From NCBI RefSeq assembly GCF_038039215.1, contig NZ_JBBPCL010000001.1, positions 4,898,001 through 4,962,000 of the forward strand: 64,000 bases of DNA, in the 5' to 3' direction. Below the pieces are notes generated by a model. It did no database searches. It was not told the DNA's origin and saw nothing but the letters and a program-made list of their open reading frames with translations. Shown here in pieces: positions 44,910-57,644 of this stretch. The translations under genes and the position numbers were made by a program. Each line of letters opens with the position of its first letter. Position 1 is the stretch's first letter. The DNA comes from Pseudonocardia sp. T1-2H. Lineage in GTDB: Bacteria > Actinomycetota > Actinomycetes > Mycobacteriales > Pseudonocardiaceae.

Positions 44910-47381
44910 TCAGCCGGGGTGGAACTCGCCGGGGTCGAGCGCGAGGAGCGTCTCCCCCGCCGGCCGGAAACCGGCGCGCCGGTAGAACTCGAGACTGCGC
45001 GCGGTCGGGGCGAGGACGAGGCGCCGGTAGCGGCGCTCCCGGGCGTGCACGATCACGGCCTCCAGCAGCGCCTGCGGGACGCCCTGGTCCGAGAACGCGT
45101 TCAGCACGAACGCGTTGCCGACCTGGCCGACCCGGCCGCCGCGCCCGCCCGGACGCGGCATGTGCACGATCTCGACGACGTTGATCGAACCGATCGCGGT
45201 GTACCCGGAACGCTCGGAACCGACCTCGGCCAGCCAGAACGTCCGTCGCGGCTGCTCGGTGCGCCACCACTGCTCGAAGCCGGCCTCGAAGCCCGGGTCG
45301 TCGACGGGCCGGCCGGTCCGCTCCTCGACCCACACGCGGCGGAGCTGGGCGAGAGCGGCGCCGTCCCGCTCGTCCGCGACCCGGACGCCGATCGTCCTGG
45401 AGCCGGGGGCCTCACGTGCACCGGGGCCGAGCTCGGCACCCAGCTCCCGCCCGACCGGGTTCACCACCGTCAGCGGGAGCAGGGTCGTCCCGCTGGGCCC
45501 GACCTCGATGTCCGCACCGGTCGACGGGCAGACGCCGCAGTCGAAGCAGGGGGTCCAGCGGCAGTCGTCCTGCTCGTTGCCGGCCAGCGCGTCCTGCCAG
45601 TCGTCCCAGAGCCAGTCCCGCTCCAGCCCGGAGTCCAGGTGGTCCCACGGGAGGGCCTCGTCGCCGTCGCGCTCGCGAGTGGTGAACCAGGCCAGCGAGA
45701 CACCCCTCGGCTCGAGCTCGGCCGCCGCGGCGTCGATCCAGCGCTGGTAGGAGAAGTGCTCGCTCCAGCCGTCGAACCGGCCGCCCTCGCGCCAGACCCG
45801 TTCGATCACCGCGCCGACCCGGCGGTCGCCGCGGGCGAGCAGGCCTTCGATCAGCGACGGCTGGCCGTCGTGGTAGCGCATGCCGATGTTGCGGCCGATC
45901 TTCCGGTCGCTGTTGACGGCCTCGCGCAGCTTGCGCAGCCGGGCGTCGACGACGTCCGGGTGGGCCTGCGCGGCCCACTGGAACGGGGTGTGCGGCTTGG
46001 GCACGAACCCGCCGATGGAGATGGTGCAGCGGACGTCGTTGCGGCCCGACGCGGCGCGGCCGGCCTTGATCACGCGGTGCGCCATGCCCGCGATCTCCAG
46101 GACGTCCTCGTCCTCCTCGGTGGGCAGCCCGCACATGAAGTAGAGCTTGACCTGCCGCCAGCCCTGCGCGAACGCCTCGGAGACGGTGCGGATGAGGTCC
46201 TCCTCCGACACCATCTTGTTGATCACACGCCGGATCCGCTCGGAGCCGCCCTCGGGGGCGAAGGTGAGCCCGGAGCGGCGGCCGTTTCGGGAGATCTCGT
46301 TCGCGAGGTCGATGTTGAAGGCGTCCACGCGCGTGCTCGGCAGGGAGAGCGACGTGTTCGAGCCCTCGTACCGGTCCGCGAGGCCCTTGGTGATCTCGGC
46401 GATCTCGGAGTGGTCCGCACTGCTCAGCGACAGCAGGCCCACCTCGTCGAACCCGGACGCGCGCACCGCCTTGTCGACCATCTCACCGATGCCCTGCAGG
46501 GACCGCTCGCGGACCGGGCGGGTGATCATCCCGGCCTGGCAGAAGCGGCAGCCGCGGGTGCAGCCGCGGAAGATCTCGACGCTGGCGCGCTCGTGCACGG
46601 TCTCGGCCAGCGGGACCAGCGGCGCCTTCGGGTAGGGCCACTCGTCGAGGTCGCTGGTGGTGCGCTTCTGGACCGTGGCCGGGACGCGCTCGTCGGTGGG
46701 GGTGACGCTCTCGATCGCGCCGTCGTCGCCGTAGGTGACCTCGTAGAGCGACGGGACGTAGCAGCCGTCCGTGCGGCTCAGCCGGAGCAGCAGCTCGGCG
46801 CGGCCACCGGACCGTCCCTCGGCCTTCCACGCCTTGACGACGTCCGTGATGTCCCCGACGACCTCCTCGCCGTCACCCAGCACCGCGACGTCCACGAAAT
46901 CCGCAATCGGCTCCGGGTTGAACGCCGCGTGCCCGCCGGCGACGACGACGGGGTGGCTCTCGTCCCGGTCCCGCGCGTGCAGCGGGACGCCGGCCAGGTC
47001 CAGCGTCGTGAGGAGGTTCGTGTAGCCGAGCTCGGTGGAGAAGGACACGCCGAGCAGGTCGAACGCGCCGACCGGGCGGTGCGTGTCCACGGTGAAGGCG
47101 GGGACGCGGTGCTCCCGCATGAGGGCCTCGAGGTCCGGCCAGACCGCGTAGCAGCGCTCGGCGAGGGCGTCGGGACGCTCGTTGAGGACCTCGTAGAGGA
47201 TCATGATGCCCTGGTTGGGCAGGCCGACCTCGTAGGCGTCGGGGTACATCAGCGCCCAGTGGACCTCGGCGGTGTCCCAGTCCTTGGCTTGAGCGTTGAG
47301 CTCACCGCCGACGTACTGCACGGGCTTGGACACCCGGGGCAGCAGGGGCTCCAGGGCGGGGAAGACGGACGCGGGGCTCAC
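44910..47381 (-). CDS. TIGR03960 B12-binding-like radical SAM protein fused to a GNAT acetyltransferase
   Basis: 823 residues from GTG 47381. Residues 1-200 form a B12-binding-like domain (DAYEVGLPNQGIMILYEVLNE). The radical SAM cluster is Cys274, Cys278, Cys281 in FRGCTRGCRFCQAG. The usual family end (CFDCGVCP, then LLPLTVVN) falls near residue 645. In frame, after a 25-residue linker, a GNAT domain follows: VRVADERDGAALAQLRRVW, NAFVLNAFSDQGVPQALLEAV and APTARSLEFYRRAGFRPAGE. The domains are separate genes in most relatives I know of. No stop or alternate-frame junction explains the join, so I read it as a real fusion. Confidence 0.85.
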   Translation of the reverse strand: MSPASVFPALEPLLPRVSKPVQYVGGELNAQAKDWDTAEVHWALMYPDAYEVGLPNQGIMILYEVLNERPDALAERCYAVWPDLEALMREHRVPAFTVDTHRPVGAFDLLGVSFSTELGYTNLLTTLDLAGVPLHARDRDESHPVVVAGGHAAFNPEPIADFVDVAVLGDGEEVVGDITDVVKAWKAEGRSGGRAELLLRLSRTDGCYVPSLYEVTYGDDGAIESVTPTDERVPATVQKRTTSDLDEWPYPKAPLVPLAETVHERASVEIFRGCTRGCRFCQAGMITRPVRERSLQGIGEMVDKAVRASGFDEVGLLSLSSADHSEIAEITKGLADRYEGSNTSLSLPSTRVDAFNIDLANEISRNGRRSGLTFAPEGGSERIRRVINKMVSEEDLIRTVSEAFAQGWRQVKLYFMCGLPTEEDEDVLEIAGMAHRVIKAGRAASGRNDVRCTISIGGFVPKPHTPFQWAAQAHPDVVDARLRKLREAVNSDRKIGRNIGMRYHDGQPSLIEGLLARGDRRVGAVIERVWREGGRFDGWSEHFSYQRWIDAAAAELEPRGVSLAWFTTRERDGDEALPWDHLDSGLERDWLWDDWQDALAGNEQDDCRWTPCFDCGVCPSTGADIEVGPSGTTLLPLTVVNPVGRELGAELGPGAREAPGSRTIGVRVADERDGAALAQLRRVWVEERTGRPVDDPGFEAGFEQWWRTEQPRRTFWLAEVGSERSGYTAIGSINVVEIVHMPRPGGRGGRVGQVGNAFVLNAFSDQGVPQALLEAVIVHARERRYRRLVLAPTARSLEFYRRAGFRPAGETLLALDPGEFHPG

Positions 47382-47468
47382 GCCGACCCAGGGTAGCCCC
47401 GCGCCACGGCGGCTCGCCGACCGGGCGAACCAGCCACGACCACCCCGCGTGTCGGGGTCGCCCACCCT

Positions 47469-47630
47469 GCGAGTCGCGATCCCGGACCACGCGAGTCGCG
47501 ATCTCAAGCCACGCGAGTCGCGATCTCCGGCCCGGTGAATCGGACCGGGAGGGTGCCGCGCTCACCCGTCGACGTCCTCGCTCAGGCGGCCCGAGGGCGC
47601 GGCTCGCCCGGTCCCGGAGCGCGACTCGCG
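47469..47630. repeat. 22-bp-period palindrome array 1
   Basis: Three units with core GCGAGTCGCGAT begin at 47469, 47491 and 47513, exactly 22 bases apart, with a degenerate fourth at 47535. After a 50-base gap, two inverted units (cores GCGCGGCTCGCC and GCGCGACTCGCG) begin at 47597 and 47619, again 22 apart. The core is the odd palindrome CGCGASTCGCG. The array fills the gap between the radical SAM gene start and the dapA stop. The same unit recurs at 55125-55201 and 55948-56068. Confidence 0.85.
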
Positions 47631-47636
47631 GGGTCG

Positions 47637-48515
47637 TCAGGGGAGGAGGTGGGCGGCGCGGAGGGCGGCGCGAACGTCCTCGTGGTGCCACTCGTCGAGC
47701 GGGACCAGGGGGAGGCGGATGCCGTGGTCCATCAGGCCCATCTCGGCCAGTGCCCACTTCACGGGGATCGGGTTGGCCTCGACGAAGAGGGCACGGTGCA
47801 GCCCGGCGATCTCGGCGTCGATCGCGGCGGCGCCCTCGTCGTCCCCGGCGACCGCGGCCTTGCACATCCGCGCCATCGCCTCGGGCGCGACGTTCGCCGT
47901 CACCGAGATGTCCCCGTGGAAGCCCATCAGCATGCTGGCGCGGGCGGTGGCGTCGTCGCCGGAGTAGAGCGCGAAGTCGTCGAGGCCCAGCGCGACCAGG
48001 TCACGGACCCGGTCCAGGTCCCCCAGCGCCTCCTTGAGCCCGACGATGTTGGGCACCTCCGCGAGCCGCTCGACCGTCGACGGCAGCATGTCGCACGCGG
48101 TGCGCCCGGGGACGTTGTAGAGGTACTGCGGGAGGTCCACGGCCTCGGCCACGGCCTTGAAGTGCCGGTACAGGCCCTCCTGCGGCGGCTTGTTGTAGTA
48201 CGGCGTGACGAGCAGGGCGCCGTCCGCGCCGGCCTTGGCCGCCGCCTTCGTGAGGTGGATCGCCTCGGCCGTGTTGTTCGCGCCGGTGCCGGCGATGACC
48301 GGGACGCGGCCGTCCGCCACGTCGATGGTGCGGCGGATGACCTCGGTGTGCTCCTCGACGGTCAGCGTCGAGGACTCCCCCGTGGTGCCGACGGAGACGA
48401 TCGCGGACGTCCCGGCCAGGACCTGCCGCTCGACCAGCCGTTCCAGCGCCCCGTGGTCGATCGTGCCGTCCTCCCGCATCGGGGTGACCAGCGCGACGAG
48501 ACTACCGGTGATCAT
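47637..48515 (-). CDS. dapA: 4-hydroxy-tetrahydrodipicolinate synthase
   Basis: 292 residues. It condenses pyruvate with aspartate semialdehyde in lysine/diaminopimelate synthesis. The Schiff-base Lys161 lies in IVGLKEA; Thr44/Thr45 (GTTGES), Tyr107 (TPYYNKP) and Tyr133 (YLYNVPGRT) complete the active site. Start ATG 48515. No other lysine gene adjoins it. Confidence 0.93.
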
Positions 48516-48573
48516 GTGCTCGGCCCTTCGGACGCTCAGGTGGTGAGGGCCGACGGTAGCAAGTGCGACCGGT

Positions 48574-49365
48574 TCAGCCCCAGGCCAGCCGGGCCGGTTG
48601 GACCGACCGGCTCACCCGGCGGATCGTCGTCGTCACCACGACGACCAGTGCGACGACCGCCGCGACCACCACCGGCACGGGCGGGCGCGCCGCCGCGACC
48701 CCGACCAGGGCCCAGGCGACCGCGGCCGCGTACCCGACGACGGCGGTCCCCGCGTTGACGACCGCCGTCGCGATCACGGCCACGACCAGCAGGACGACGA
48801 TGGCGGCGACGTCCGCCAGTGCCCCGTCCCCCGGCAGCCCGATCCGGACGCCGGTGGCCGCCGTGCCGAGGGCCACCGCCACGGAGACCCAGCCCGTGTA
48901 CACCGAGACGGTCCCGCGCAGGACGATCCGTTCGAGCCTGCCCTCCGCGGGCTCGTGGCTCAGCCGGCCGAACACGAGCGCGAGGATCACCAGCAGCACG
49001 ATGAGCAGGATCTCGGCCAGGAACACCTCTCGGCTGCCGAAGGTGAGGATCCACAGCGGGTTCGCGACGGCCGCGGCGGCGAGCCACCACCCCGTGCGCC
49101 GGTGGACCGTGCGTGCTCGCTGGCCGGGCAGCAGCTGGTAGACGGCGTAGGCGAGGAAACCGATGTAGATCGGCCCCCAGATCGCGAACGCCCAGTTCGC
49201 GGCGAGCAACGGGGTGGCATAGGAGCGGGCGACGTCGCCGACGGGTTCGCCGACGACGCCGCTGCCACCGAGCCCGGAGAGGACGAGCTGGGCGACGGCG
49301 AGCACGGCCACCACGACACCGCGGACGAGGTCCGCCGTGGTGGCACGTGGGGTCAGGACGGTCAT
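48574..49365 (-). CDS. Membrane protein, tryptophan-rich sensory (TspO-like) type
   Basis: 263 residues from ATG 49365 with about eight hydrophobic segments. [24 protein letters not shown] and [15 protein letters not shown] resemble the Trp/Pro-rich helices of TspO-like proteins, but it is longer than the 150-170 residue family core. Function unknown. It lies between dapA and a GNAT gene on the same strand. Confidence 0.6.
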
Positions 49366-49473
49366 GGCGCCATCCTCACCCCACGGATGTGTGACGGCCA
49401 TTCGGTCCGGCCCGTCATCTGCCCGGGTGACCAGGTGGAGATCACGGGTGGCCGGGAACCCGACGGAAGCCGC

Positions 49474-49998
49474 TCAGTCCGCCAGCTGCCGCTGGAACCA
49501 GTGCTCGTCCCGGACGTCGTCCGGCCCGAGGCGCAGGGCGCCCGGGAACACGCCGACCTCGGTCCAGCCCTGCTTGACGTAGAACTCGGGCAGCCGCGTG
49601 CCGCCGCGGGTCGAGAGCAGCAGCTGCTCCAGGCCGAGGGCGCGCGCGAGATCGACGGCGCCGTCGAGCAGGGCTCGTCCGTGGCCCCGTCCCTGCAGCT
49701 CCGGGTGGACCATCAGGCGGACGACGGTGCCCCGGTGCGCGATCACCTGGCCGTCACCGGGAACGACGAAGACGACACCGCCGAGGTCGGCCGCGTCGCC
49801 CAGGACCAGCGGGTGCGCCCGGCCCGCCTCGACGTCGGCGATCGCCGCCTCCGCCTTCGCGCGGATGTCCCGTTCCGGGGCGTCGTGGGTGAAACCCACG
49901 GCACCGCCGGCGCGGGTCACCGCGAGCCAGAGATCACCGAGCGCCGCCGCCCCGGGCGCGACGCGGTGCGGGCCGGCGATCCCGGCCCCCGCCCTCAC
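49474..49998 (-). CDS. GNAT-family N-acetyltransferase
   Basis: 174 residues from GTG 49998, which overlaps the ndk stop (GTGA). The acetyl-CoA loop reads [21 protein letters not shown] and the fold ends in [27 protein letters not shown]. The substrate is unknown. The longer open frame to 50154 overlaps ndk and is not coding. Confidence 0.85.
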
Positions 49999-50405
49999 AG
50001 GTTCGGGAACCAGAGCTTGATCTCGCGGGCGGCGGACTCCGGCGAGTCCGACCCGTGGACGAGGTTGAGCTGGGTCTCGAGGCCGAAGTCGCCCCGGATG
50101 GTGCCGGGGGTGGCCTTCTCGACGGGGTCCGTGCCACCGGCGAGCTGGCGCCACGCCGCGATGGCGCGGGGGCCCTCGACGACCGCCGCCAGCACCGGGC
50201 CGGAGGTGATGAACTCCAGCAGCGACTCGAAGAAGGGCTTGCCGTCGTGCTCGGCGTAGTGCTGCGTGGCGAGCTCGCGCTCGACGGTCCGCAGTTCGAG
50301 GGCGACGAGGTCGAGGCCCTTGCGCTCGATCCGGGCGAGCACCTCACCGACGAGCTTGCGTGCCACGCCGTCGGGCTTGACGAGGACCAGGGTGCGTTCA
50401 GTCAC
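49995..50405 (-). CDS. ndk: Nucleoside diphosphate kinase
   Basis: 136 residues from GTG 50405, the standard length. It equalises nucleoside triphosphate pools through a phospho-His intermediate. Phospho-acceptor His117 is in [12 protein letters not shown] and the opening [10 protein letters not shown] is canonical. In mycobacteria it lies between rne and folC, as here. Confidence 0.97.
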
Positions 50406-50511
50406 GCCGATCAGGATATCGAGCGCCCGGACGATCTCCGTCACGGGACCTTCGCCCTGCGCATCTCGGCGCAGCGGTGGTGTGCGCAGAGCAAAGGGGC
50501 GGGAGGAGGAC

Positions 50512-50907
50512 CTACTGCCGCTGACTCGGCAGCTCGCCCCGCGCCATCTTCCCCGCGACGTCCCGGCGCATCAGCAGCAGCGTGACCCACACGAGACCGA
50601 AGATCACCCCGACGGCGGCCAGCGACACGTGGATGAACCCGCACGCGATCAGCGCCACCTGCAGGACCAGGGCGAGCGGCAGGCCCCACGGCTTCCGCTG
50701 CACCCCGCAGGCGACGACCATCAGCACCGCGAGGACCAGGACGAGCGTGAGCCCCACGCCGTTCATCGCCCCGACCGTGAACTTCGAGACGACCAGCAGC
50801 GCGAGCAGCACCACGATCGTCTCGAGCACGAGCACCGCGGCGAAGATCCCGCGAATCCCCTTCATCGGGTCCTTCGCCGGGGGCCTGATCGCAGGTTGCT
50901 CGCTCAC
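50512..50907 (-). CDS. DUF4233 membrane protein
   Basis: 131 residues with four hydrophobic helices; [23 protein letters not shown] and [17 protein letters not shown] are characteristic. The function is unknown, but the gene almost always follows folC in actinobacteria. Start GTG 50907 overlaps the folC stop (GTGA), so it is translationally coupled. Confidence 0.88.
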
Positions 50908-52436
50908 GACGGCTCCAGCCCGAACACCGACCGCGCCTCGCCGGCGGTCACCACGGAGCCCGTGACGATCACCCCGATACCGGAGTCGCCGGCCTCCTCG
51001 GCCAGCTCCCCCGCCTGCTCGATCGCCGTCCGGAGGTCGGGCTCGACGCTCACCCGGTCCCGGCCGAACACCTCGACGGCCAGCCCGGCCAGCTCGTCCG
51101 GGTCCATCGCCCGGGGAGAGGAGTTGGCCGTGATGACCACCTCGTGCACCGCCGGCTCCAGCTCCGCGAGCAGCCCGCGGGCGTCCTTGTCCTTCATGAC
51201 GCCGATGACCCCGACGAGCCGGGTGAACCGGAACTCCGACATCAGCGACGCGGCCAGGGCGCGGGCGCCGTGCGGGTTGTGTGCGGCGTCGAGCAGCACG
51301 GTCGGGGCGCCGGGACCGCCCGCGACGACCTCGAGCCGGCCCGGCGAGCGGACGGACGCGAACGCCGCCCGCACCACGTCCGGGTCGATGGGCTGTTTCG
51401 GGCCGGCCCCGATCAGGGCCTCCGCGGCGGCCAGCGCCAGCGCCGCGTTCGACGCCTGGTGCTCGCCGTGCAGCGGGAGGAACACGTCGTCGTAGCGGCC
51501 GCCGAGGCCCTGCAGCTCGAGCCGCTGCCCACCGACGGCGATCTCCCGCTCGCGGACGCCGAACTCGGCGCCCTCCCGCGCGACCTGCGCGCCCACCTCG
51601 GCGCTGCGCTCGATCAGCACCTCCGCGACGGCCTTGTCCTGGGCCGCGAGGATCGCGACGGAGCCGGGCTTGATGATCCCGGCCTTCTCCCGCGCGATGC
51701 CGAGGAGGTCCGTGCCGAGGAACTCGGCGTGGTCCAGCCCGATCGGGGTCAGCACGGCGACGTCCCCGTCGGCGACGTTGGTGGCGTCCCAGCGGCCGCC
51801 CAGCCCCACTTCGACGATCGCCGCCTCGACGGGCGCGTCGGCGAACGCGGCGAAGCCCATCGCCGTCAGCACCTCGAACTTCGAGAGCGGCACCTCGCTC
51901 CTGGCGTCCACCAGGTCCACGAACGGCGCCACGTCCCGGTAGATCTGCACGTACCGCTCCGGGGTCACCGGGCGGTTGTCCAGGTTGATCCGCTCGGTGG
52001 CCCGCTGCAGGTGCGGACTGGTGTAGCGGCCGGTGCGCAGGCCGATCTCGGTGAGGATCGCGTCGATCATCCGGGCCGTGGACGTCTTGCCGTTCGTGCC
52101 GGTCAGGTGCACAACGGGGTACCCGCGGTGCGGCTCCCCCAGCACGTCGACGAGTGCGGTGATCCGCTCCAGCGACGGCTCCATGACCGTCTCGGGCCAG
52201 CGCTTGTCCAGCACGGCCTCGACGGCCAGGAACTCCGCGTACCCGGCGACCGACGACTGCGCCGGCACGACGTCCGGGGTCTCGCCGCCGCGGATCTGCT
52301 CCAGGACCGCGGAGATCACCGCGTCCTGGACGTCGCCCTCGGGCGTCGGGACCGCGCCCTCGCCCTCCGGCAGCTCCTCGGGGTGGTCCGGGAACTCGTC
52401 CGGGTACTCGCCCCGCTCCTCGTCGTCGCGGCTCAT
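50904..52436 (-). CDS. folC: Bifunctional folylpolyglutamate/dihydrofolate synthase
   Basis: 510 residues. An acidic N-terminal extension (1-50, rich in Glu/Asp/Pro) precedes the Mur-ligase-type core with P-loop [39 protein letters not shown] and [11 protein letters not shown]. It adds glutamates to folates. Start ATG 52436 overlaps the valS stop (ATGA). The valS-folC-DUF4233-ndk order is conserved in actinobacteria. Confidence 0.95.
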
Positions 52437-55081
52437 GACTCGGGCAGCGCGGCGAGGCGGCCGGAGACCCGCTCGATCTCCGCGACCGCCGCCTCGCGGC
52501 GCGCGCGGATCCCGTCGACGACGGTCGCCGGGGCCTTCTCGGTGAACTTCGGGTTGGTGAGCTTCTTGTCCGCCTGGTCCAGCTCCTTCTGCGCGGCCGC
52601 GAGATCCCGGCCGAGGCGGGCCCGCTCGGCGGCGACGTCGATCGCGCCGGAGGTGTCCAGCTCGACGTGGACCTTGCCCCCGGCCACCGTGACGTCGACG
52701 GTGGCGGTGGGCGCGAAGTCGTCCCCGGCGGGATCCAGCCTGGTCAGGAACCGGACGGCCGCGCCGTGCGCCTCGAGCCCGGCCGCGTCCAGGCCGACGA
52801 GCCGCGCCGCGACCGAGCGCCGGTCCGGCAGCCCCTGCTCGGTGCGGAACCGGCGGACCTCGGTGATCAGCTTCTGCGCCGCCTCGACCCGCGCGACCAC
52901 ACCGGCGTCGACCGGCAGGCCGGTGTCCTCGCCGGGCCACGCCGCCGTCACGACGGTCTCGCCGCCGGTGAGGGTGGTCCAGAGGGCCTCGGTGACGAAC
53001 GGCGTGATCGGGTGCAGCATCCGCAGCAGCGCGTCCAGTGCGTGGCCGAGGACCGCGCGGGTGCCGTCCGCCGTCGCCGGGTCGTCGAACTGCGGCTTGG
53101 CGAGCTCGAGGTACCAGTCGCACAGCTCGTCCCACGTGAAGTGGTAGAGCCCCTCGGTGGCCTTGGCGAACTGGAAGTCCTCCAGCAGCGCGTCCGTCTG
53201 CTCGCGGACCTCGCGCAGCCGGCCGAGGATCCAGCGGTCCGCGTCCGTCAGGTCCTCGACGGCGGGCAGCGGCAGCGCCGGGGACGCGCCGTTGGCCATC
53301 GCGAACCGCGTGGCGTTCCACAGCTTCGTCGTGAAGTTGCGGGAGCCGGCGACCCACTCGTGCGAGAGCGACATGTCCGTGCCCGGGTTCGAGCCGCGCG
53401 CGATGGTGAAGCGCAGCGCGTCCGCGCCGTAGGCGTCGATGAGCTCGAGCGGGTCGATGACGTTGCCCTTGGACTTCGACATCTTCTTGCCGTGCTCGTC
53501 CCGGATCAGGCCGTGCAGGTACACGTCCCTGAACGGCGCCTCGCCCATCGCGTAGATGCCGAACATCATCATCCGGACGACCCAGAAGAAGAGGATGTCG
53601 TAGCCGGTGACCAGCACCGAGTTCGGGTAGTAACGCTCGAGGTCCGGCGTCTTGTCCGGCCAGCCCAGCGTCGAGAAGGGCCAGAGCCCGGAGGAGAACC
53701 AGGTGTCCAGGACGTCCTCGTCCTGCCGCCAGCCCTCGCCCGTCGGCGGCTCCTCGTCGGGGCCGACGCAGACCATCTCGCCGTTCGGGCCGTACCAGAC
53801 GGGGATGCGGTGGCCCCACCACAGCTGCCGGGAGATGCACCAGTCGTGCATGTTGTCGACCCAGTCGAAGAACCGGGACTCCATCTCGGCGGGGTGGATC
53901 GTGGTGGCGCCGGAGCGGACCGCGTCGCCGGAGGCCTTCGCGAGGGACTCGACGCGGACGAACCACTGCAGGCTCAGCCGCGGCTCGATCGGGACGCCGG
54001 TGCGCGAGTCGTGGCCGATGGAGTGGATGTAGGGGCGCTTCTCGGCGACGATCCGGCCCTGCGCGGCGAGTTCCTCACGGATGGCGACGCGCGCCTCGAA
54101 GCGGTCCATGCCGTCGAAGCGCGTGCCCGTCCCGGCGATGACGCCGGACTCGTCCATGATCGTCGGCATCGGCAGGTCGTGCCGGCGGCCCATCTCGAAG
54201 TCGTTGGGGTCGTGCGCCGGGGTGATCTTGACGGCGCCGGAGCCGAACTCCGGGTCGACGTACGGGTCCGAGATGACCGGGATGTCCCGCCCGGTGATCG
54301 GCATCCGGATGGTCTTCCCGACCAGGTGCGCGTACCGCTCGTCGTCCGGGTGGACGGCGACGGCGGTGTCCCCCAGCATCGTCTCGACCCGGGTGGTGGC
54401 GACGACGATCGCGTCCTCCCCGTCCCCGTACAGCATGGAGACGAGCTCGCCCTCGACCTCCTTGTGGTCCACCTCGATGTCGCTGATCGCGCTCTGCAGC
54501 GCGGGCGACCAGTTGACCAGGCGCTCGGCGCGGTAGATGAGGCCGTCGTCGAACATCCTCTTGAAGACGGTGTTGACGGCGCGGGAGAGCCCCTCGTCCA
54601 GGGTGAAGCGCTCGCGGGACCAGTCGACGCCGTCGCCGAGGCGGGTCATCTGGCCCAGGATCGAGCCGCCGGACTCGGCCTTCCACTCCCAGACGCGCTG
54701 GACGAACTCCGTACGGCCGAGCTCGCGGCGGCCCGGCTCACCGGCCTCGGCGAGACGGCGCTCGACGACGCTCTGCGTGGCGATGCCCGCGTGGTCCATG
54801 CCCGGCAGCCACAGCGCGTCGTAGCCCTGCATTCGGCGGCGCCGGGTCAGGATGTCGATCAGCGTGTGGTCCATGGCGTGCCCGAGGTGCAGGCTGCCCG
54901 TGACGTTCGGCGGCGGGATGACGATGCTGTACGGCGGCTTGCCGGAGTCCGGGTCCGCGGTGAAGTAGCCGTTCTCGACCCACCGCCGGTACATGCCGGC
55001 CTCTACCTCGCCCGGGTTCCACTTGGGCGGGAGGTCGGCAGTGGCGCCTCTGATCGGGCGCGGCGGAAGGGTCTCGGTCAC
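52433..55081 (-). CDS. valS: Valyl-tRNA synthetase
   Basis: 882 residues from GTG 55081. Class I signatures are [10 protein letters not shown] (HIGH) and [13 protein letters not shown] (KMSKS). The editing domain lies between ([23 protein letters not shown]). The C-terminal coiled coil ([24 protein letters not shown]) is complete. It charges tRNA-Val and edits threonine. I saw no T-box leader. Confidence 0.97.
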
Positions 55082-55124
55082 GCTGTCAAGTCTACGAGCC
55101 CGGCGCACCCCGATTCCTCGCCCC

Positions 55125-55201
55125 CGCGAGTCGCGGTCTGAGCCCGCGCGAGTCGGGATCTCAGCCCCCGCGAGTCGGGACCCGAGACCACACGAGTCGG
55201 G
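55125..55201. repeat. 22-bp-period palindrome array 2
   Basis: Four units begin at 55125, 55147, 55169 and 55191, exactly 22 bases apart. Cores read CGCGAGTCGCG, CGCGAGTCGGG, CGCGAGTCGGG and CACGAGTCGGG; spacers of 11 bases are related (for example GTCTGAGCCCG, ATCTCAGCCCC). It lies between the valS start and the stop of the C39-like gene, in the opposite orientation to array 3 on the other side of that gene. Confidence 0.85.
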
Positions 55202-55213
55202 ACCCGGCGCGGG

Positions 55214-55906
55214 TCACCTCGGGAGGAACGCCGTGTGGAGGCGGTCGAAGCCGAGGATCGGGCGGAGGCGGCGTTCGCGGATCGCGGCGGGGTCGAGGGG
55301 GCGGACGGTGGCGCTGCTCGGCTCGTACACCCGCCAGGTGCCGTCGTCGGAGATCCGCAGGGCGAGGCAGTAGTGGCGCGGGACCCCGGCTCCCACCAGC
55401 AGCGGGACCGGACGGCGGGCGCCGAGCGCGGCCTCGATCTCCCGGATCACCTGCTCGACGTCGGCGCCCGACAGGTCGTCGACGAACCGGATCCGGTACC
55501 GACCGACGCCCGGCGCGTACCTACGGAGCCAGCCCGCGAAGCCCCACGGGGTGGTCCCGAGGGCCTGCGGCCAGAGCCGGTTGGTCTGCCGGTGGACCCG
55601 CTTCTGCAGCGCGTCGTAGCGGCCGGCGAAGCCGTCCACGACCCCCGACGGCGTGGTCTCCCGGAATTCGAGCTTCTCCAGCTCCGCCGGATCGGCCCAG
55701 ATGGCGAGGGCGACGAGGACCGCGCTGCCGCACGTCGTGCCGTCGACCTGGTCGAGCCTCGCGCCCTCGTGCCGCTTCTCGCCGAGCGCGTCGGTGACGA
55801 GCGCGCGGCGGGGGCCGTTCAGGGACCGGACCGCGGCGACCGGGACCGGGGCGGCCCGGTGGAACAGCCGCTGGACGGCGCTGCCGATGGCCGAGACCGT
55901 GCGCAT
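55214..55906 (-). CDS. C39-like cysteine peptidase-fold protein of unknown function
   Basis: 230 residues from ATG 55906, with GGAGG nine bases upstream. DQVDGTTCGSAVLVALAIW places a Cys as in papain/C39 folds, VPRHYCLALRI supplies a His and WRVYEPSSATV the third strand, where an acidic residue replaces the usual Asn/Asp pattern. Activity is plausible but unproven. No signal peptide or membrane segment. The gene is flanked on both sides by the 22-bp repeat arrays in inverted orientation, which is unique in this window. Confidence 0.6.
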   Translation of the reverse strand: MRTVSAIGSAVQRLFHRAAPVPVAAVRSLNGPRRALVTDALGEKRHEGARLDQVDGTTCGSAVLVALAIWADPAELEKLEFRETTPSGVVDGFAGRYDALQKRVHRQTNRLWPQALGTTPWGFAGWLRRYAPGVGRYRIRFVDDLSGADVEQVIREIEAALGARRPVPLLVGAGVPRHYCLALRISDDGTWRVYEPSSATVRPLDPAAIRERRLRPILGFDRLHTAFLPR

Positions 55907-55947
55907 CCGGGTCCTCCGTTCGTCGGGTGCACCGTGCCACGCCGCAC

Positions 55948-56068
55948 GGCGACTCGCCGACGCGAACACGCCGACTCGGGCGGACTCAGAGCGCGACTCG
56001 CGCGGTCTCACAGCGCGACTCGCGGGGCCTCAGAGCGCGACTCGCGCGGCTTCACAGCGCGACTCGCG
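55948..56068. repeat. 22-bp-period palindrome array 3
   Basis: Six units in inverted orientation begin at 55948, 55970, 55992, 56014, 56036 and 56058, exactly 22 bases apart. The last four have perfect CGCGACTCGCG cores; the first two are slightly changed. Spacers are CGGTCTCACAG, GGGCCTCAGAG and CGGCTTCACAG. It lies between the C39-like gene start and the phoD stop. Confidence 0.9.
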
Positions 56069-56093
56069 GGCGGTCCGGTCACGAGCCGGGAGT

Positions 56094-57644
56094 TCAGGTC
56101 GTCAGCGTCGTCGCCCACAGCTCCTCGCCCCGCTGCCCGCGCAGCGTGGCCCGCAGCTCCCGCCCGCCCGGCGCGACCTCCAGCTCGCCGAAGTTCTGGA
56201 ACCCGTCGAGTGGCGAGGTGTTCTGTGCGGGCGGCGGCTGCACGAACACGGCCTCCGGGCCGAGCGAGGGATCCAGGTCGCCGGGCCCGAACGCCCCGGC
56301 GTGCAGCGGTCCGGACACGAACTCCCAGAACGGGTCGAAGTCCTGCACCGACGCGCGCTCGGGCGAGTAGTGGTGCGCGGCCGTGTAGTGGACGTCCGCG
56401 GTCACCCAGACGACGCCCCGGACCTCCCGCCGGTGCAGCCCCTGCAGCACCCCGGCGATCTCGGACTCGCGCCCGCTGGGTGCTCCCGGGACGCCGTTCG
56501 CGACGGCCTCCCAGGCGCCCTGGCCGTCCGCGACGCAGAGCCCGAGCGGCATGTCGGCCTGCACGATCTTCCAGGTCGCCCGGCTGGAGGCGAGCCCGTC
56601 GACGAGCCAGCGGGCCTGCTCGGCGCCGAGGATGTGTCCGTCCGCGCCGGTGTTCGGCCCGTTGGAGTCCCGGTAGGTGCGCATGTCCAGGACGAAGATC
56701 TCGACGTGCGGGCCGTACGGGATCCGCCGGTACACCCGCCCGTCGACGGCCCGGCGCGGGTCCAGCGGCACCCACTCGTGGAACGCCTGCGACGCGCGTG
56801 CCGCCAGGACGTCGACGCGCTTCTCCGTGTACTCCGGCAGGGTCAGGATCTCCCCGGGGTACCAGTTGTTGAGCACCTCGTGGTCGTCCCACTGGTTGAT
56901 CTGGGCGACGGACGCGGCGAACGCGCGGACGTTCTCGTCGAGCAGGTTGTAGGCGAACTGCCCGCGGTACTCCGCCAGCGTCTCGGCGACCTTCGACTTC
57001 TCGGGCGTGACGACGTTGCGCCAGGTCCGGCCGTCGGGGAGCGTGACGGTCTCCTTCAGCGGCCCGTCGGAGTAGACGGTGTCCCCGCTGTGCAGGAACA
57101 GGTCGGCGTCCCGGGCGGCCATCGCGGAGAAGATCCGCATCCCGCCGATGTCCGGGTTGATCCCCCAGCCCTGCCCGACGACGTCACCGGACCAGAGCAG
57201 CCGGACGCGCTCGTCGCCGCCCGGCTGTGTCCGGAAGACGCCCGTCAGCGGCTCGCTCGTCGTACGGCCGTCGAGATCCTCCGCGGTGACGCGGTAATGC
57301 GTGGTCCGGGCCGCGGCCGGGACGCGGACCCTGCCGGTGAGGTCCGTGTCCGGGGTCAGGACCGGGCCGGGAATCCGCCGGACGCGGCGGAACTCCGGGT
57401 TGTCCGCGATCTCGACGACCATGCGCGACGGCCGGTCGGCGCGGGTCCAGACGAGCCCGGAGCCCGGCAGCACGTCACCGGCCTGGACTCCGTGGGTGAG
57501 GACCGGCCGTGCGCCGCGGTGCACGAGTGGGGCCGCGGTGCCGAGAGACGGGAGCGCGAGCGTGGCGGTGGCCGCCGAACCGGCCACCGCGGCGGTCCGG
57601 AGGAGGGTGCGTCGGGAGAACGGGGAGCTCATGCGGCCTGACAT
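56094..57644 (-). CDS. phoD: PhoD-like alkaline phosphatase, Tat-exported
   Basis: 516 residues. The twin-arginine signal SRRTLLRTAAVAGSAATATLALP is followed by a beta domain (50-145) and the PhoD phosphoesterase core: LLWSGDVVGQGWGINPDIGG, FLHSGDTVYSDGP, INQWDDHEVLNNWYPG and VWVTADVHYTAAHHY. PhoD uses iron and calcium to hydrolyse phosphodiesters outside the cell. Start could be ATG 57644 or ATG 57632. No Pho-box was identified upstream. Confidence 0.9.
   Translation of the reverse strand: MSGRMSSPFSRRTLLRTAAVAGSAATATLALPSLGTAAPLVHRGARPVLTHGVQAGDVLPGSGLVWTRADRPSRMVVEIADNPEFRRVRRIPGPVLTPDTDLTGRVRVPAAARTTHYRVTAEDLDGRTTSEPLTGVFRTQPGGDERVRLLWSGDVVGQGWGINPDIGGMRIFSAMAARDADLFLHSGDTVYSDGPLKETVTLPDGRTWRNVVTPEKSKVAETLAEYRGQFAYNLLDENVRAFAASVAQINQWDDHEVLNNWYPGEILTLPEYTEKRVDVLAARASQAFHEWVPLDPRRAVDGRVYRRIPYGPHVEIFVLDMRTYRDSNGPNTGADGHILGAEQARWLVDGLASSRATWKIVQADMPLGLCVADGQGAWEAVANGVPGAPSGRESEIAGVLQGLHRREVRGVVWVTADVHYTAAHHYSPERASVQDFDPFWEFVSGPLHAGAFGPGDLDPSLGPEAVFVQPPPAQNTSPLDGFQNFGELEVAPGGRELRATLRGQRGEELWATTLTT

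Follow-up and report, generated by a model that had tools for sequence, protein, structure and literature searches.

Arrays of a CGASTCG core at 22-bp steps behind genes in Pseudonocardia, with a patchy distribution among relatives

The HIP1 palindrome (GCGATCGC) of cyanobacteria is short, GC-rich, and very frequent; it is not known to occur as 22-bp arrays or to be restricted to the ends of genes. Plasmid-encoded ParR proteins bind side by side to tandem parC-type sites that lie about two helical turns apart, in a plasmid locus adjoining their own partition genes, unlike the many chromosomal sites of the arrays considered here. REPs are reported to occur downstream of genes and in the gaps of convergent pairs (PMC3733652). 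Direct repeats of the heptamer TAACTGA are intergenic, abundant, and patchily distributed in Beggiatoaceae, Cyanobacteria, and Bacteroidetes, according to the abstract of PMC4679880. A search of the open-access literature returned no description of 22-bp CGASTCG arrays.

The window is the 64-kb stretch at positions 4,898,001 to 4,962,000 of the 6.6-Mb main contig of a 7.0-Mb Pseudonocardia genome, hereafter the own genome (G000). An earlier note on this DNA had described three intergenic arrays of an 11-bp palindrome repeated at 22-bp steps. All three arrays were recovered where it had placed them, and they lie between genes predicted by a home-made caller (Table 1). For array 1, where 3 to 4 direct and 2 inverted units had been counted, 3 direct units and 1 inverted unit are exact; the fourth direct and second inverted units are weak and came from a search with a weight matrix whose training set was DNA of this genome. 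The inverted side of array 1 is 8 bp from the stop codon of dapA, and array 3 lies 27 bp past the stop codon of the gene for a PhoD-like phosphatase.

Table 1. Arrays and adjoining genes in the window (positions are those of the window)
Feature	Coordinates	Strand	Units and cores	Setting or remark
Array 1, direct side	47468..47522	+	3 units; CGAGTCG at 47470, 47492, 47514; a fourth, weak, near 47448	Flanked by a radical-SAM gene (its start) and dapA (its 3′ end)
Array 1, inverted side	47600..47630	-	Exact unit, CGACTCG at 47622; weak unit near 47600	As above
dapA (DHDPS family)	47637..48515	-		3′ end adjoins array 1
valS-like tRNA synthetase gene	52433..55108	-		Adjoins array 2; start uncertain (longest ORF to 55108, home-made caller 54994)
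Array 2	55125..55201	+	4 units at 22-bp steps; CGAGTCG at 55127, 55149, 55171, 55193	Between the valS-like gene and the 3′ end (14 bp off) of gene 55214..55906
Gene without Pfam match	55214..55906	-		Array 2 on one flank, array 3 on the other
Array 3	55948..56068	-	6 inverted units; CGACTCG at 55950, 55972, 55994, 56016, 56038, 56060	
PhoD-like phosphatase gene	56094..57632	-		3′ end adjoins array 3

Periodicity, unit anatomy, and distribution

Across the 7.0-Mb genome, CGASTCG cores at a 22-bp step numbered 258, versus 1 for the reversed pattern, and pairs of GCGASTCGCG numbered 84/77, versus 0/0. Distances between same-strand cores in 1.464 Mb of the own genome were 22 bp (70 cases), 44 (47), 66 (28), 88 (15), 110 (9), and 132 (6). 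All 70 neighboring same-strand cores found 20 to 24 bp apart in this DNA, which was picked without any array condition, were separated by exactly 22 bp, with none at 20, 21, 23, or 24. The signal is the periodicity and order of the cores, not the abundance of the heptamer, which alone is barely above the Markov expectation (252 and 256 observed versus 228 and 224 expected in the 1.464 Mb). Nor does the frequency of the 11-mer itself in the window exceed expectation (17 matches with at most one mismatch versus 21.5 expected); the excess lies in the periodicity of the 22-step pairs. A weight-matrix search trained on the same 1.464 Mb found 29 arrays of at least two units and none in the reversed sequence. 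A lag scan of 1.4 Mb that makes no reference to the core gave 14 clusters at lag 22; between lags 14 and 35, every other lag that is not a multiple of three gave 0 or 1.

Each unit consists of CGAGTCG followed by 15 bases, with the direction set by the central G and the spacer. The 11-bp palindrome had been put forward as the conserved element; it is replaced here by a directional 7-bp core and a largely species-specific spacer, the 11-mer being the own genome's version. The spacer of the own genome approximates SGNTCTGRGRCCNCG (unit profile), and the consensus is GGAGTTCCGGCACCG in P. autotrophica, TACGTTCCCGTCGCG in Actinophytocola, and GCGCTTGTGGTGGCG in a Nocardioides. The spacer of a unit departs from the consensus of its own genome at about 4 positions. 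In 14 genomes, spacer identity was 0.49 to 0.87 between loci of one genome versus 0.36 to 0.48 to other species, with P. nigra barely species-specific (0.49 between its own loci versus 0.44 to other species). Identity within a locus was 0.63 to 0.95, which in most genomes is above the between-locus values (0.74 versus 0.49 in P. nigra and 0.79 versus 0.58 in a Nocardioides) and in P. autotrophica and P. eucalypti is no higher than between loci. The CGASTCG core and the 22-bp step are nearly constant, and the spacers are largely species-specific.

The search of the whole genome and of relatives that the earlier note had recommended revealed a genome-wide family with a patchy presence over the genus. 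At least one match was present in 44 of 62 genus genomes and none in 18, with 0 to 371 matches per genome and low counts at the control level. Matches occurred in 108 of 249 genomes of a family sample, mostly few and at the control level; some of these genomes showed a clear excess, such as G198 (158), G091 (157), G140 (67), and G286 (52). In a phylum sample, the only one of 396 genomes to carry the 3-unit pattern was the own genome. Arrays were also detected in a few other Pseudonocardiaceae and in several Nocardioides, and the named matches among the loci listed are mostly from Pseudonocardia. The arrays form a family that extends through the genome and, patchily, through the genus, and that is associated with the 3′ ends of genes.

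Some matches were set aside as nonmembers. Those in planctomycetes, Opitutus, Myxococcales, Eremiobacterota, Paraburkholderia, and Terrabacter look like chance perfect repeats, 11-bp repeats, or coding repeats, and they remain in the statistics on 120 loci given below. Two stretches of one 50-kb viral contig carry a perfect tandem repeat, apparently near the contig ends, at 52 to 57% GC and were judged unrelated. A search of plasmids with array 3 returned no match at E 1e-5.

Position relative to genes and turnover between relatives

Gene positions were taken from the home-made caller, which covers 73 to 81% of bases and therefore misses some genes. The sample comprised 199 arrays, drawn from the 120 loci listed (at least 120 matched, 80 named) and from 1.464 Mb of the own genome. 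The comparison of intergenic with coding DNA bore out the intergenic location proposed earlier, with 6 of the 199 arrays in called genes; 28 arrays without a neighbor on one side were left unclassed. The 108 array-bearing intergenic regions of the 120 loci listed were convergent in 44 cases, tandem in 54, and divergent in 10, versus 21.9, 58.2, and 28.0 expected from the bases in each class, and the 17 of the own genome were convergent in 7 cases, tandem in 10, and divergent in 0. Arrays therefore favor convergent gaps and avoid divergent ones.

Arrays in the sense of the preceding gene lie close to its end: 59 of 132 begin 2 to 20 nt past the stop codon, 20 of them at 4 to 5 nt, and TGA-CCCCG-CGAGTCG is a frequent junction. 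The median distance from the gene is 26 nt for same-sense arrays versus 65 nt for opposite-sense arrays. Outward-facing cores up to 60 bp apart are separated by 29 to 33 bp in 16 of 29 pairs, nine of them at 31 bp (close to three helical turns), in a count limited to pairs of which a core belongs to a 22-bp array, at loci mostly chosen for three exact units; the own genome alone gave 5 of 8 at 29 to 33 bp. One array lies within a precorrin-3B-synthase-like (CobG-like) gene (locus L147 of P. autotrophica; an identical protein is recorded under P. halophobica), where it encodes a linker that varies by 22 residues (3 units, 66 bp), with two copies in P0001 and one in P0002 to P0004. More distant Pseudonocardia CobG-like proteins in the same alignment are without the 22-residue repeat. 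The presence of an array in this variable linker indicates that arrays also arise where they are merely tolerated.

Turnover was followed between the own genome and G047, which is about 6% apart from it. Twenty sites in G047 were obtained from matches to own-genome arrays; for 17 of them, the corresponding flanks could be placed in the own genome (14 out of 17 queried, plus 3 others). All 17 orthologous sites carry an array of at least two units in both genomes, in a sample of array sites chosen by similarity to the own arrays, rather than of all gene ends. At least one array orientation is common to the two genomes at 16 sites and is reversed at one (L358/L373), and unit numbers differ at most of the 17. 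Over the 26 units compared (of 36, in 14 of the 17 pairs), identity was 72.3% in the spacer, 88.5% in nearby nonarray DNA, 93.1% in the flanks, and 97.3% in the core, the last value being inflated because an exact core was required in G047 and the alignment favors core on core.

Individual sites were compared across more genomes. At a convergent gene pair near 682 kb, cores in opposite orientation lie behind the gene in six of six genomes (G000, G047, G048, G003, G009, and G015), and the spacers, unit numbers, and interiors differ, although the flanks of G000 and G047 are 97 to 98% alike; in G015, the second gene is about 7 kb off, and only the end of the first gene is shared. At a pair near 543 kb, G000 and G047 carry arrays of different types, G009 has one core, and G048 has none. 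Among 30 loci from 30 genomes at the dapA site (own genome included), 22-step cores were found only in G000, G047, and G048. G015 and G016 are identical over 198 kb and hence uninformative for turnover.

The exactness of the step differs between the two genomes. Off-steps in the own genome number 0 of 70, or 3 of 76 when double steps are included (42, 42, and 45 bp rather than 44). At the 20 loci of G047, single steps are exact in 56 of 62 cases and 21 bp in the other 6. Of 7 double steps, 5 measure 43 or 45 bp rather than 44, which brings the off-steps to 11 in 69. In DNA beyond the arrays, substitutions outnumber indels of up to 3 bp by 21 to 1 (525/25 in 13 of the 17 pairs), and this rate, combined with about 4 spacer mismatches per unit, predicts roughly 10 to 20% off-steps. 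The deficit suggests selection on the step in the own genome but not clearly in G047. In a larger sample, 553 of 566 steps are at 22 bp, a proportion biased upward because the loci were mostly picked for three exact 22-bp units. A different family, with a 19-bp step, is present in another relative. The gene pair looked at for 22-bp and 19-bp arrays at one site is split in G010. The suggestion that a 22-bp step keeps all units on one face of the helix agrees with the invariant own-genome steps and with the outward pairs at about 31 bp, whereas the 21-bp steps of G047 and the 19-bp family speak against it.

Explanations for the arrays

The arrays may be phased sites for a putative sequence-specific DNA-binding protein acting just behind genes, a tentative reading of the sequence comparisons to which we assign a probability of about 0.42. 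It would account for the shared core and step, for spacers that vary by genome and not by site, for the persistence of sites between relatives, and for the bias toward 3′ ends. Each unit of ~22 bp would present the directional core CGAGTCG and a spacer of species-dependent preference, as if the partner protein had changed along with it. Bound side by side, such a protein could assemble into a short filament and thereby halt or insulate RNA polymerase in the gaps between neighboring, often convergent, genes. The earlier note had envisaged cooperative binding by a dimeric protein, and the arrays might be bound in this manner. Neither a binding protein nor a copying enzyme was found among the array-adjacent genes and in a search for RAYT transposases. 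Comparison of 266 array-adjacent genes gave small clusters only; the three largest had 5, 4, and 3 members, and the one of 5 is a common dehydrogenase-like family. The genes at divergent arrays appeared ordinary by eye, with no candidate binding protein, and RAYT (Y1_Tnp, PF01797) had no match in G000 and is present in 5 of 62 genus genomes. The 18 genus genomes without a match and the few arrays located within genes also count against the protein-binding reading.

Nearly as likely, and compatible with most of the same facts, is a dispersed repeat whose units are copied intact and whose presence behind genes is tolerated. Such a REP-like repeat without a cellular role would have its units copied between loci, homogenized by recombination or some enzyme, and retained where they are least harmful; the step would be nearly fixed, as units are copied whole. 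This would account for the greater likeness of spacers among the loci of one genome than to other species, for the patchy presence and widely ranging copy numbers, and for an array in the variable CobG-like linker, with one or two copies of its repeat and none in more distant species. The avoidance of divergent promoters suits tolerance as well as function, and REPs, too, are reported from positions downstream of genes and from convergent gaps (PMC3733652). The off-steps of G047 are about as frequent as mutation predicts, which takes weight from the protein-binding reading and adds it to the REP-like one. Four observations weigh against a REP-like repeat: all 17 sites are still occupied in both genomes while their spacers were replaced, once in the opposite orientation; the own genome has no off-step among 70; the distances from the stop codon peak at 4 to 5 nt; and the own genome is without RAYT.

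The protein-binding reading can be extended to a "phased insulator" system, which we regard as doubtful in this complete form. A dedicated, fast-evolving protein would assemble into filaments on the 22-bp arrays that follow many genes and would separate convergent units; its spacer preference would drift between species, with the arrays rewritten to match, and relatives may run an equivalent on a 19-bp step. If true, this would be a bacterial parallel to co-evolving pairs of satellites and their binding proteins. To our knowledge, spacer turnover with a constant core and step is unusual among bacterial repeats, and little is understood of the means by which actinobacteria terminate transcription and separate convergent genes. 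Arrays that share a core and step, but whose genome-wide spacer is replaced within a few percent of divergence, could reveal either co-evolution of a repeat and its binder or a new mode of repeat copying. Phased arrays behind genes that are stable in site and labile in sequence offer a direct way to seek the bound protein.

It is improbable that the arrays are RNA-level elements, serving as terminators or as stabilizers of mRNA 3′ ends through hairpins. Inverted array pairs are able to pair (outward junctions CGACTCGCGGG...CCCGCGAGTCG), and arrays sit behind genes, but arrays of a single orientation show no more folding than ordinary 3′ regions do: the mean z was −1.26 for arrays of at least 3 units (n = 164) versus −1.35 for array-free 3′ regions (n = 120). 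Whole convergent gaps hardly differ in folding, with a mean z of −3.50 and 48% below −2 when arrays are present (n = 33) versus −2.72 and 55% when they are absent (n = 60 of 95). Between 47300 and 56300, the window has 0 terminator-like sites with a T tract, versus 0.8 in shuffles, a weak test in GC-rich DNA, and a search of Rfam over 47000 to 57000 gave no match at the arrays and one subthreshold match at 56724 to 56769. RNA hairpins are thus unlikely to be the common denominator of the arrays.

A role as centromere-like or translocase-guiding sites for chromosome handling is very improbable; tandem ParR sites about two helical turns apart would be a precedent, but the arrays occur throughout the chromosome, run in either orientation, and often form inverted pairs at a single site. 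Least probable of all are ordinary minisatellites, each grown from chance sequence by local slippage: unit numbers that differ between G000 and G047 and spacers that in most genomes are more alike within than between loci (strongly so in P. nigra and a Nocardioides) would suit them, but the possession of one core and step by different genera largely refutes them, lag 22 is conspicuous among those that are not multiples of three, and units in P. autotrophica and P. eucalypti are equally alike between and within loci, so that slippage, which the earlier note had considered as a mode of growth, is insufficient when local and alone.

Comparison with described repeats

The arrays are not CRISPR arrays, as had already been proposed: CRISPR repeats exceed 20 bp and alternate with unique spacers of similar length, whereas the core here is 7 bp and the spacers have a common consensus within a genome. 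Nor do they resemble intrinsic terminators, which have a stable GC-rich hairpin, classically with T after it; no such site was detected in 47300 to 56300 (a weak test in GC-rich DNA), and the arrays are not more structured than controls.

Like REPs and BIMEs as described in PMC3733652, the arrays consist of many short intergenic copies with species-specific versions, located behind genes and often in inverted pairs. Their location agrees with that of REP/RAYT elements (downstream of genes, in convergent and tandem intergenic regions), given 44 convergent, 54 tandem, and 10 divergent regions among the 108. They differ in the direct tandem 22-bp step, the 7-bp core, the single arrays without additional RNA structure, and the absence of a RAYT match in G000. 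A REP/RAYT unit is a palindrome of 20 to 40 bp with a GTAG or CGTC tag; the array unit combines an odd palindrome of 7 bp with a 15-bp spacer, and neither the own-genome profile nor the units listed show such a conserved tag.

TAACTGA repeats, as summarized in the abstract of PMC4679880, resemble the arrays in being an abundant intergenic heptamer in direct repeats with a patchy distribution over lineages. However, they lie mostly just upstream of start codons, whereas the arrays have the core CGASTCG and often lie behind stop codons, and the combination seen in the arrays, a conserved 22-bp step and a species-specific spacer, is not mentioned in that abstract. By the features compared, the arrays belong neither to the REP/BIME elements nor to the TAACTGA repeats.

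Array changes between genomes and arrays near or within genes

At one intergenic site common to Pseudonocardia sp. T1-2H and its relative G047, the rows of CGASTCG cores possess three units each and lie in opposite orientation (L358 in G047 versus L373 in T1-2H). Steps of 21 bp make up 6 of the 62 steps at 20 loci of G047 (L346-L365) and 0/70 in T1-2H itself. Two other compared genomes, G015 and G016, are classed as two species and share 100% identity across 198 kb (L287-L296 versus L297-L306).

One array encodes a 22-residue linker repeat of a CobG-like protein, and the copy number of this repeat is one or two, depending on the species.

Positions of the features described in this section and the last
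Feature	Position	Setting
Gene without a Pfam match	window:55214-55906	between arrays 2 and 3 (CGASTCG arrays of the window), which are in inverted orientation
Array in coding sequence	L147:5983-6099	within a CobG-like gene
19-bp-step arrays	L266 (G008:C1:1080001-1100000), ∼11.2-12.9 kb into the locus	two within a convergent gap, one adjoining a stop codon

A long inverted repeat in G048

At the convergent gene pair near 682 kb, a long inverted repeat with CATAT and CGGCCG in its loop lies between both arrays of the compared genome G048 (L308). A similar inverted repeat was identified at L320, bringing the total to two convergent sites in G048, and the repeat may represent another dispersed element.

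A second array family with a 19-bp step

A second family of arrays, with a step of 19 bp and a unit of approximately GTGCGAACGNTGYGATCC, is found in G008, a genome that lacks CGASTCG arrays. The 19-bp-step pattern is also elevated in G019 and G031, and perhaps in G013.
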